Assembly (NCBI GenBank): GCA_013151415.1 | Contig: JAADII010000134.1 | Location: forward strand, 1-40,927 | DNA: 40,927 nucleotides | Reading direction: 5' to 3' | Source: Chloroflexota bacterium | GTDB lineage: Bacteria; Chloroflexota; Anaerolineae; J102 | In this document: piece by piece, positions 4,455-31,147 of the stretch | How the letters are laid out: the number at the start of each line of letters is the position of its first letter | How positions within the stretch are numbered: position 1 is the stretch's first letter | The notes under the pieces: generated by a model | Databases searched by the model: none | Seen by the model: the letters and a program-made list of their open reading frames with translations, nothing else | What the model was told of the DNA's origin: nothing | Translations under genes and position numbers: made by a program

Positions 4455-4614
4455 CCGACCGCGGGCCAGCCCGCTCCGATACGGATGAAAATGGCTTGCG
4501 CCGACCAACGTAGACCAAAGTAGACCAAGGTAGACCATGGGCCTTTTGGTCTATGTTGGTCCTATGGTCTATGTTGGTCTGAGCGCTCATCAAGGCCTGT
4601 GCGACCGACATCGG
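4455..4614. repeat. Dispersed repeat family C, copy 1 (TAGACCA palindrome with conserved flanks)
   Basis: The interior is an imperfect palindrome built from TAGACCA words on the left (4503-4538) and TGGTCTA words on the right (4546-4580). Flanking sequence is conserved too: 4471-4590 aligns without gaps to 30999-31118 with about nine mismatches in 120 bases by eye. Similarity continues, more weakly, out to a CCGAC-containing border on each side. It lies immediately upstream of the membrane protein gene. A single related word (AAGTAGACCAG) occurs alone near 3795. Confidence 0.8.
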
Positions 4615-4788: not shown

Positions 4789-5168
4789 ATGAAATACGAC
4801 ATCGCGCTCAAAGAACTCTTTCGTCATTGCAGCGAGGCCATTGAAGGGATATTATGATCGAATCCGCCGGATACGAACTTATCAAACAGGAAGGTTGGAA
4901 GGAGGGCCTGAAAGAGGGCCTGAAAAAAGGTCGCGAGGAAGGCCGGGAAGAAGGTCTGGAAGAAGGTCTGGAAAAGGGCCGCGAGGAAGGACTGCGCGAG
5001 GGCTTATTGGACGCCATCGCCTTGGGTTTGAACCTGCGTTTCAACGCCGAAGGTCTGAAGTTGATGAAAGAGATTCGTCAGATCGAGGACATTCAGGTGC
5101 TGCGCATCTTGCGCGAGGCGTTGCTCTCGGTCAAGTCATTGGACGAATTCCGCGCACTTTATCAATGA
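4789..5168 (+). pseudogene. Remnant of a Rpn/PD-(D/E)XK transposase-like family gene (internal deletion)
   Basis: An ATG at 4789 opens 22 codons (MKYDIALKELFRHCSEAIEG) that resemble the N-terminus of the Rpn/DUF4351-type PDDEXK proteins, then stops at 4855-4857. An ATG at 4854 (ATGA overlap) opens 104 codons resembling the C-terminal part of the same family: a Lys/Glu/Gly-rich helix of KEGLKEGLKKGREEG-type repeats, a LLDAIALGLNLRFNAEGL segment and an EIRQIEDIQVLRILREAL tail. The roughly 150-200-residue nuclease core between these ends is missing, so the gene appears to have lost its catalytic domain by internal deletion. The short tail might still be translated, but it has no catalytic residues. 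This is inferred from recalled family layout. Confidence 0.6.
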
Positions 5169-5170
5169 TA

Positions 5171-5302
5171 GTTGGTATTAGGTATTGGATATTGAGATAT
5201 TGGGTGCGCTTAACTCATAAATGGAATCAAGCGCCAATACCCAATACCCAGTATCCAATATCCAGTATCTAATATCCAGTATCCAAGTATCCAGCACCCA
5301 AT
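5171..5302. repeat. Word repeat family A, copy 1 (GTATTGGATATTGG palindrome)
   Basis: The left arm (5173-5205) is a run of GGTATT/GGATATT words. A short loop of unrelated sequence (5211-5229) follows, bounded by GCGCT and AGCGC. The right arm (5230-5302) contains the complementary AATACCC, GTATCCA and ATATCCAG words. The element starts with GTTGG and ends in CAGCACCCAATC, as does the copy at 14719. It directly abuts the stop codon of the methyltransferase gene on the minus strand and follows the Rpn remnant on the plus strand. Confidence 0.8.
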
Positions 5303-9168: not shown

Positions 9169-9263
9169 CGACGATCGGACGATAAGACGATGGACGAGAG
9201 ACGATGAGACCATAGCTGAGCCTGAGCCCCCATCGTCCTATCGTCCATCGTCTATCGTCTATC
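9169..9263. repeat. Word repeat family B, copy 1 (GGACGAT palindrome with conserved loop)
   Basis: The left arm is made of CGGACGATAAGACGATGGACGA words and the right arm of ATCGTCCTATCGTCCATCG words. The loop (about 9208-9231, GACCATAGCTGAGCCTGAGC) closely matches, in reverse complement, the loop of the copy at 32737-32806. It lies between the phosphodiesterase-family gene and the radical SAM gene. Readings from it extend the phosphodiesterase frame artificially upstream. Confidence 0.8.
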
Positions 9264-9298: not shown

Positions 9299-10888
9299 TC
9301 AAAATCCACTCGTCTCAGGTCGTTGGTAATCGATGAGTCGGTGCATTAGGCGCAATTCGACGGGGAAACGATAATATTGCAAATGATAGCGCCAGGCAGA
9401 GACCGCGCGTAGCACGCGGCGCCATCGCCCCGAAAGCCGCGCATCGGTGGACGTGGGATAATAGGCGTTCAGCACCCGTTCGAAATCGTGCAATCGCGCT
9501 TGAAGCGGCTGCTTGACCCAAGGCATGGTCGCGCTGCGGCGCTGCGTGAAATCCAACCATTCCGGGCTGATCCACTCCTCCAGCGTTTCGGGGAATGCGA
9601 ACCCTTCGGCCCTGGCCTTTTCATACAACTCACCGGCCAGGGGAACCGGGGTGTACAGGTACATGATGATCTCGGTGGCCGGGTTCACCTCCTTCACCTT
9701 GCGGATGAAAGCCATGGTCTCCTCGACATCGCGCTCGGGGTCGGGCGGATTGCCGAGCACGAACGACATTTCCGGCACGATGCCGTAGTCGGCCATTTTG
9801 CGGGCGATGGTCAGCGTTTTCTCGGTGGACGCTTTGCCGCCCTTGTTCATGCGGCGCAACGTTTCATCCGAGCCTGACTCCGCGCCCAAAAAGACCATTC
9901 TCAGGCCGCTGTCGCGCATCAAACGCCAGGTGCGCTCCTCGAACTTGAGCATGGTGTCGATGCGCGCCTCGCCCCACCAGGCCACGTCCAGGTCCATGAT
10001 GCGCTCCGCGAATTCGGCCACCCGCGCCTCGCTGACGAAAAAGTTGTTGTCGTAGAACTCCACCGCGTTCACGCGCCAGCGTCGCGCATACAACCGCACC
10101 ACATCGGCCACCTGTTCGGCCGTCTGCGGAAACCAGCGCCCCTCCACCATGTTCACCACCGCGCAAAAATTGCAGAAAAAGGGACAGCCATACGAGGAAT
10201 GATAACCCAGCGTGCGGTCGCCCAAAAACGTCTTGCGCACATACCGCGCCACCGGAACGCGCTCGAAATTGAACGTCGGCAACTCGCGCGGATGAGGAAT
10301 GGCCGGCAAGCCGTTGGAGACGGGGCGGCCCGCGGCGTCGCGATGGGCCAGGCCGGGGATGGTGGATATTGGGTATTGGGTATTGGGCTGGGTGTTGGGT
10401 AGTCGGTTGGCGACCGGTTCGACGAATGGGTCCTGACCACGGACTTTGGATTTTCGACTTCGGACTTCGGACCTGGGCTTTCTTCCAAACACCTCGTCCA
10501 TGAGCGCGCGGAATGTGTATTCGCCGTGGCCGCGCACGACGAAATCGACGTAGTTCGCGCGCAGAACCACATCCCAATGCTGGGTGGGAAAATATCCGCC
10601 CCAAACCATGATGATGTGCGGGTGGCGGCGCTTCAGCTCACGCGCCAACGGAACCGACTGCTGCAACTGCGGCCCCGGCATCACCGTGAACCCCAGCACG
10701 ATAGGCTCGTCCCCGGCATACTGGCTTATCCGCTCGTCCAGTGCGGCCAGAGCGTCCTCCTCTAGATTCCCGTCCACGATTTCATATTCATGCGCGCCTT
10801 CCAACACCGCGCCCACCGCCAACAGCGAGCAAGGCAACACGGGCTTCTTGTTGGCCGAAGATTGGGGGTTGTAGAGAATAATGGGCAT
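9299..10888 (-). CDS. B12-binding-domain radical SAM protein with repeat-derived insertion
   Basis: 529 residues. The N-terminal part (MPIILYNPQSSANKKPVLP, then IVDGNLEED, FTVMPGPQLQQS and GGYFPTQHWD) matches the cobalamin-binding-like domain found before many radical SAM cores. The radical SAM cluster motif is SSYGCPFFCNFCAVV (CxxxCxxC, about residue 230). RMVFLGAESGSDETLRRM and EMSFVLGNPPDPERDVEET follow as in Elp3/MiaB-like cores. The C-terminal part (WISPEWLDFTQRR) is typical of the BchE/HpnP/HpnJ-like group, so methylation or cyclisation of a lipid or sugar is possible. Residues about 137-176 are translated repeat sequence inserted between the two domains. Start support is strong: GGAGGTGA lies about ten bases before the ATG. 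Confidence 0.8.
   Translation of the reverse strand: MPIILYNPQSSANKKPVLPCSLLAVGAVLEGAHEYEIVDGNLEEDALAALDERISQYAGDEPIVLGFTVMPGPQLQQSVPLARELKRRHPHIIMVWGGYFPTQHWDVVLRANYVDFVVRGHGEYTFRALMDEVFGRKPRSEVRSRKSKVRGQDPFVEPVANRLPNTQPNTQYPISTIPGLAHRDAAGRPVSNGLPAIPHPRELPTFNFERVPVARYVRKTFLGDRTLGYHSSYGCPFFCNFCAVVNMVEGRWFPQTAEQVADVVRLYARRWRVNAVEFYDNNFFVSEARVAEFAERIMDLDVAWWGEARIDTMLKFEERTWRLMRDSGLRMVFLGAESGSDETLRRMNKGGKASTEKTLTIARKMADYGIVPEMSFVLGNPPDPERDVEETMAFIRKVKEVNPATEIIMYLYTPVPLAGELYEKARAEGFAFPETLEEWISPEWLDFTQRRSATMPWVKQPLQARLHDFERVLNAYYPTSTDARLSGRWRRVLRAVSAWRYHLQYYRFPVELRLMHRLIDYQRPETSGF
10363..10477. repeat. Repeat families A and D inserted in frame in the radical SAM gene
   Basis: 10363-10401 consists of the GGATATTGGGTATTGGG words of family A. 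10437-10477 consists of GGACTTTGGATTTTCGACTTCGG-like words, with CTTCGG/GGACTTCGG repeated, forming a different family (D). Read on the minus strand they encode SEVRSRKSKVRG and NTQPNTQYPIST in the host frame, at the junction between the cobalamin-like and radical SAM domains. The frame is preserved on both sides. Confidence 0.75.
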
Positions 10889-14718: not shown

Positions 14719-14860
14719 GTTGGATAGTAGGTATTAGGTATTTGGATATTAGGTATTGGCGCTGAGTTCCAGAAACGCCAGTATCCAATACCCAATATCC
14801 AGTATCTAATATCCAGTATCTAATATCCAGTATCCAATACCCAATTCCCCAGCACCCAAC
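14719..14860. repeat. Word repeat family A, copy 3 (palindrome)
   Basis: The left arm 14719-14763 (GTTGGATAGTAGGTATTAGG and on) is separated by a short loop, bounded by GGCGCT and ACGCC, from the right arm 14775-14860 of GTATCCAATACCCAATATCC-type words ending CAGCACCCAAC. The order GTTGG / GCGCT loop / CAGCACCCAA is the same as in the copy at 5171, although the loop sequences differ. It fills the gap between dctM and the terminator. Confidence 0.8.
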
Positions 14861-24131: not shown

Positions 24132-24196
24132 GTTGGTCGGGTGGTCTGTTCGTCGCTTGGTCGTTTGGTCGGGTGGTCGGGTGGTCGGGTGGGTTG
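24132..24196. repeat. Word repeat family E (GGTCGGGT tandem)
   Basis: A tandem array of TGGTCGGG/TGGTCGTT words, with GGTCGGGTGGTCGGGTGG repeated at the right end. It exactly fills the gap between the glycosyltransferase start codon and the small membrane protein gene. Unlike families A-C it has no complementary second arm. Confidence 0.7.
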
Positions 24197-30829: not shown

Positions 30830-30890
30830 GTTGGGGATTGGGTGCTGGATACTGGGTATTGGGTATTGGATATTGGGTATTGGATACTGA
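30830..30890. repeat. Word repeat family A, copy 4 (one arm only)
   Basis: GTTGGGGATTGGGTGCTGG followed by ATACTGGGTATTGGGTATTG words. It is the reverse complement of the right arm of the copies at 5171 and 14719, including the CAGCACCCAATC end, but no left arm is present. A family B element follows directly. Confidence 0.75.
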
Positions 30891-30899
30891 GGGGTGACG

Positions 30900-30969
30900 A
30901 TGGGACAATGGACGATAAGACGATTAGCGAGGCGTTCATGGTCCCATCGTTTATCGTCCTATCGTCCGA
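30900..30969. repeat. Word repeat family B, copy 3
   Basis: ATGGGACAATGGACGATAAG is the left arm and CATCGTTTATCGTCCTATCG the right. The core GATTAGCGAGGCGTTCATGG and adjacent GTCCCATCG match, in reverse complement, the CGATGGGACCATGAA in copy 6 at 38583. It is wedged between copy 4 of family A and copy 2 of family C in the gcvT-gcvH gap. Confidence 0.75.
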
Positions 30970-30982
30970 CTTGCAAACCAAC

Positions 30983-31147
30983 CCGACGGCGGGCGGACCC
31001 GCTTCGATACGGATGAAAATCGCTTGCGCCGACCAACGTAGACCAAAGTAGACCAAGATAGACGACGGGCCTATTGGTCTATGTTTGTCCTATGGTCTAT
31101 GTTGGTCTGGCCGCTCATTACGACATGACTTGTCCGACCGACCTCGG
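30983..31147. repeat. Dispersed repeat family C, copy 2
   Basis: It contains the same TAGACCA/TGGTCTA palindrome and the same 120-base ungapped core (30999-31118 against 4471-4590) as copy 1. The translated reading MVYFGLRWSAQAIFIRI on the minus strand is shared between the two copies, which is how the similarity first shows. It lies immediately downstream of gcvT. Confidence 0.8.

Follow-up and report, generated by a model that had tools for sequence, protein, structure and literature searches.

Dispersed short repeats are commonly dismissed as noise between genes or regarded as regulatory hairpins; at the locus described here they have become part of a core enzyme. The palindromic elements of Rickettsia, dispersed repeats that have entered protein genes without breaking the frame, have been proposed as a source of new peptides. 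Enterobacterial RU elements, which are dispersed in-gene mobile repeats, have been given the same proposed role (PMC2759123). G-rich heptamers are known from Xanthomonas (GGGAATC) and Nostoc (GGGGA(C/T)T), where they are dispersed and mostly intergenic, with 7–11% intragenic; those of Xanthomonas form convergent inverted pairs (70–75 cases; PMC4692102), and the 7-bp STRR repeats of cyanobacteria form hairpins (PMC2670836). In marine Beggiatoaceae, TAACTGA heptamers occur within ORFs; in one orientation they are stop-free and all frames yield a single 7-residue cycle, whereas the opposite orientation contains stops (PMC4679880). Heptamers inside genes are already known, therefore, with precedents in Beggiatoaceae and Xanthomonas; a literature search of incomplete coverage found no paper on in-frame heptamers in Chloroflexota.

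The window analysed here is a stretch of 40,927 nucleotides from a Chloroflexota bacterium (contig JAADII010000134.1), whose 4.52 Mb genome is a single MAG in 197 contigs. Its gene at 9299–10888 on the minus strand, delimited by ORF, Pfam and orthologues, encodes a 529-residue protein with a B12-binding domain (residues 19–129) and a Radical_SAM domain (232–395). The first-pass annotation had claimed that repeats lie within this gene and leave its frame and catalytic motifs intact, and the observation is confirmed: the ORF runs uninterrupted across the repeat-bearing region and both Pfam domains are found. The protein belongs to the BchE/HpnJ-like superfamily; every NCBIfam match falls below its curated cut-off, and we therefore assign neither a specific function nor a reaction.

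Two unrelated heptamer families sit in frame immediately past the B12 domain. The family A array (GGRTAYT units, G-rich strand on the plus strand) occupies 10357–10402 and encodes residues 163–178, reading NTQPNTQYPIS on the coding strand; an exact GGATATTGGGTATTGGGTATTGG spans 10364–10386 and degenerate units continue to about 10402, so that the array is short, with about three clean units. The family B array (GGACTTY units, plus strand) occupies 10441–10477, encodes residues 138–150 and reads RSEVRSRKSKVR. Between them lies a non-repeated middle part of 38 nt (10403–10440, plus strand), encoding roughly GQDPFVEPVANR, of which no other copy was found in the genome. Strict generic detection of period-7 repeats yields few arrays because the units are degenerate, and arrays were therefore counted by word patterns with reversed-pattern controls. 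Across the genome the family A pattern has 351 matches against 0 for its control, and family B 97 against 7, which excludes chance and upholds the report of two repeat families at the B12/radical SAM junction; the identical family A 23-mer is present at other sites (e.g., C31:4208 and C125:2603). GG at a period of 7 was the commonest intergenic spacing among those tested, and the repeat units carry GG or GGG tracts only, where G-quadruplex formation in the Xanthomonas–Nostoc type goes with GGG or longer tracts.

Elsewhere in the window family A lies outside called genes, as had been noted from the sequence. A hairpin at 5173–5299 (G-rich arm 5173–5195, C-rich arm 5234–5299) folds at −53.5 kcal/mol (z −8.1), a second at 14744–14849 has arms at 14744–14759 and 14778–14849 (z −8.0), and an array at 30833–30890 adjoins a hairpin of a third family, C (GGACGAT), at 30896–30966. 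Another family C hairpin (GGACGAT/ATCGTCC; 9170–9259, z −7.8) separates the host gene from the next. A pure terminator role for these hairpins was considered and rejected, since they are not confined to convergent gene ends. The intergenic habit is not strict genome-wide, as arrays of both A and B also occur inside genes. A sample of 882 kb, drawn without reference to repeats and 85% coding by gene calls from a simple codon model, holds 46 A and B arrays between genes, 1 at a gene edge and 7 inside called genes; one of these seven precedes the true start, leaving six arrays in four genes. Two arrays (L132 and L280) that first seemed intragenic proved to be upstream of the true start, and ANTKYP matches in L133 and L230 are ordinary coding sequence. 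The families show a weak tendency to cluster as mosaics (13 clusters, 8.6 expected under random intergenic placement), on which we base no claim.

Alignment with 83 homologue rows from genome collections reveals that the linker between RGHGEY and ELPTF, 88 residues in the window protein, normally has 52–58, and in most rows 52–54. The closest orthologue (L003/L082, 77% identical) has a linker of 58 residues, 30 shorter, and the nearest relatives pass almost directly to PGLAYRD. The net gain is thus 30 residues relative to the closest orthologue and about 35 relative to the typical length, somewhat below the 40 or so first estimated. A tree built by a quick method on the gene without its linker places L003, then G007, as sisters of the window gene. 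These short linkers show the insert to be derived, its date and the empty site being seen only across about 20–25% protein divergence. The same-family genome that holds L082 (G003) has 30 family A matches, none of them in this gene, and no homologue with the same linker was found in a genome that lacks the repeats. The MAG's 197 contigs and many copies of family A could in principle have produced a chimeric join at the repeat; however, the two parts of the gene flanking it align in order and in a single frame with one and the same orthologue, codon scores are positive on each side, and the same phenomenon occurs in independent genomes, such that an assembly chimera is hardly credible.

Prediction with AlphaFold using 30 orthologues (mean pLDDT 85.9) gives, apart from the C-terminus, one long segment below pLDDT 50, residues 141–172, flanked by the final B12-domain helix (123–133) and the strand at 180–183. 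The insert is hence predicted to form a disordered loop of ~30 residues between two domains. The idea that domain linkers tolerate such repeats draws further support from comparisons with PDB structures (FdhA, TilS, MenD and MenE, below) and from parallel inserts in the linkers of orthologues.

Orthologues L004, L005 and L008 carry linker inserts of PISQSP type, built of CCAATCTC words that have 110–390 matches per genome in their own genomes. The linker of L006 holds an array of GCTCACC, a word with 52 matches in that genome (41–68 per genome among those counted); that of L031 has ACCATTC words (5 matches in its own genome), and that of L042 a palindromic dispersed element (also 5). Sister genomes differ in their linker words (L004 versus L006, L008 versus L010): outside the linker L008 and L010 are 92.5% identical over 1440 nt with 0 gaps, and inside it 62% identical with 19 gaps. 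The linker has been filled recurrently, in other lineages, with different genome-specific words. For L013 and G007 (L083) the insert sequence is no dispersed repeat of the genome that carries it, and both were dropped from the parallel cases.

A rival explanation is a purely local origin, in which the linker DNA would have grown by replication slippage from chance seeds and never been copied from elsewhere. Linker length does vary among orthologues, the G007 linker holds three GCAACCG units, an array without dispersed copies in that genome, and heptamers are reported to be the most frequent long tandem repeats of bacteria, with polymerase slippage as a proposed cause (PMC4692102, PMC4679880). 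On the other side, the exact family A 23-mer and the family B words match genome-specific families at many other sites (with 0 control matches for A), and local growth would not repeatedly yield a genome's own word in different lineages. Slippage alone leaves the shared genome-specific words unexplained, and we regard a local origin as improbable.

The radical SAM gene is one of several hosts. With targeted stretches added to the sample, A or B arrays turn up in no fewer than five further genes of the same genome, among them a Wzy_C-family ligase, a membrane protein, with B followed by A; a DUF2298/PMT membrane protein with families C and A; a lectin-domain protein; and the formate dehydrogenase alpha gene (FdhA), whose product has about 64 residues where a solved formate dehydrogenase structure has 5. 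The FdhA gene also contains an in-frame TGA (L185:3360–3362, G000 contig C166) at CARL(U)HSATVTGL, where relatives have Sec or Cys, and which probably encodes selenocysteine. In two other genomes (those of L004 and L007, in stretches picked because they bear arrays) in-frame arrays occur in genes for a DEAD-box helicase, 2-oxoacid dehydrogenase E2, pyruvate:ferredoxin oxidoreductase, TilS, an aminotransferase and neighbouring chorismate-binding enzyme, MenD and MenE; TilS, MenE and MenD with arrays have extra residues relative to PDB structures. Arrays of G062 and G065 were sampled at known sites. Together, the array-bearing genes of the three genomes substantiate the initial suggestion that the elements can hit genes. 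In the L007 genome the adjacent chorismate-binding enzyme, MenD and MenE genes (L318:4427–10903) each carry an in-frame ACCATTC array. Separately, one ORF of G000 (L230:6694–9541, contig C36) contains two near-identical extracellular solute-binding domains in tandem, either a real fusion or an assembly effect.

A family A array at L273:6847–6950 (G000 contig C44) joins a beta-propeller in frame 0 before the array to frame 2 after it. Both halves match the same propeller families, and the shift reflects either an out-of-frame gain of the array, giving a broken or phase-variable gene, or an assembly indel. This gene of the present genome, out of frame exactly at its A array, speaks for a phase-variation switch, in which gain or loss of units, each 7-nt unit shifting the frame, would toggle the enzyme. 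The in-gene arrays of this genome are nevertheless short and degenerate and hence a poor substrate for slippage, and every orthologue with a complete locus keeps its array in frame; for the radical SAM gene we consider such a switch very improbable.

We next consider how an array of this kind can be read through. Since three does not divide seven, all frames of an array yield one 7-residue cycle, and for both families this cycle is stop-free in all frames (IPNTQYP for A, KVQSPKS/EVRSPKS for B). With a stop-free unit of 7 nt, translation cannot end within the array, and the sole condition for coding is that the total length be divisible by three. Stop-freeness is not special by itself, as one random heptamer in two lacks stops on either strand.

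In intergenic inverted pairs the G-rich arm comes first (9 of 9 for A, 25 of 26 for C, 34 of 35 for the CCAATCTC word), and such convergent pairs can form stem-loops, those of the window folding with z about −8. The in-gene segment instead has one arm per family and folds no better than shuffles (z +0.6), with no hairpin. Wherever orientation is unforced, lone arms inside genes are C-rich as transcribed. This holds for 15 of 15 cases, with all 6 loci of this genome and all 9 of the L004 genome agreeing (together p = 6e-5). The nine arrays of the L007 genome are also C-rich in mRNA, an orientation forced by a stop on the other strand. G-rich arms occur inside genes only as part of complete hairpins. 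This bias suggests filtering. The C-rich strand of family A encodes the hydrophilic, proline-rich IPNTQYP and the opposite strand the hydrophobic WVLGIGY; peptide hydropathy accounts for the bias of family A but not for that of the CCAATCTC word, for which a reason at the level of RNA or of disorder is possible. Intergenic singles of family A also lean C-rich (10 to 3), hence an RNA-level cause may contribute.

The hairpins raise the alternative that a defined mobile element (a MITE, RPE or REPIN-like) was inserted as one unit. Between genes the units are hairpins whose arms follow a fixed order, two membrane protein loci of the L004 genome (L291:14114–14175 and L303:9999–10070) contain whole two-arm hairpins in frame, and the L042 orthologue has its palindromic element in the very same linker. 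The window insert itself looks otherwise: a search of the whole insert against the 4.52 Mb genome returned many matches to its A half, few to its B half and no second A–middle–B unit, and it has one arm per family, a segment without fold, and neither fixed length nor fixed ends. We looked for a target duplication or defined insert ends and identified none; the insert lacks the combination of fixed-length unit, terminal inverted repeats and target duplication typical of MITEs and REPINs, and the in-gene segment lacks the palindrome of about 100–150 bp that characterizes Rickettsia palindromic elements. Insertion of such a unit is unlikely here, and a fixed-ended element is disfavoured as the copying route.

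We favour the reading that the segment is a repeat-derived insertion of dispersed heptamer words, fixed in a tolerant B12/radical SAM linker, and put its probability at roughly 85%; the words recur across the genome and lie in frame, their C-rich strand falls on the mRNA, the insert is derived by comparison with orthologues and predicted to be disordered, and this linker has received different genome-specific words in other lineages. One arm each of families A and B, which usually form hairpins between genes, would have become fixed between the domains. Purifying selection may pass single arms that are in frame, C-rich in sense and placed in loops, and remove the rest, the words then perhaps turning over by slippage or re-copying. 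Because no fixed unit with common ends appears to be copied, the spread might proceed by transposase-independent copying, conceivably by template switching or gene-conversion-like events between words. We suggest more tentatively, at somewhat less than even odds, that in those Chloroflexota that have lineage-specific heptamer or octamer words, stop-free words are continually copied into coding genes, with interdomain linkers as acceptors whose words turn over at the pace of the intergenic ones, giving a standing, frame-neutral supply of disordered segments under strand-specific selection. The share of short repeats in new coding sequence is directly testable, as orthologues show empty and filled sites and the 7-nt unit predicts the frame.

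The arrays thus resemble those of Xanthomonas, Nostoc and STRR in having G-rich tandem units of 7 nt in many copies, mainly intergenic and in convergent inverted pairs. They differ in that a single genome holds several words side by side, whose tracts are GG and not GGG/GGGG; that in-frame internal linker inserts are documented against orthologues, one linker being recurrently invaded; and that lone arms show a sense-strand bias. With the TAACTGA heptamers of Beggiatoaceae they share arrays inside ORFs and frame-independent translation, but most of those sit at the ends of proteins or in hypothetical ones (PMC4679880), whereas the present ones are internal to conserved enzymes and separate their domains. 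Like Rickettsia palindromic and RU elements, they are dispersed repeats in frame within protein genes; those elements, however, measure about 100–170 bp and have defined ends, whereas these are arrays of short words without fixed ends, although the insert in the L042 orthologue does look like a palindromic element. For annotators and structure modellers, NTQYPIP, PISQSPNL or TIHHSPF in a Chloroflexota protein is likely to mark a repeat-derived linker, not a domain.

The window contains further repeats of other kinds. A dispersed repeat of 145 nt with a GACCAAAGTA-type decamer array is present twice (4455–4599 and 30983–31127, 88% identical), about nine 12-nt tandem units occupy a coding-like stretch at 4888–4995, and an octamer array (TTGGTCGG/GTGGTCGG) lies at 24133–24192.
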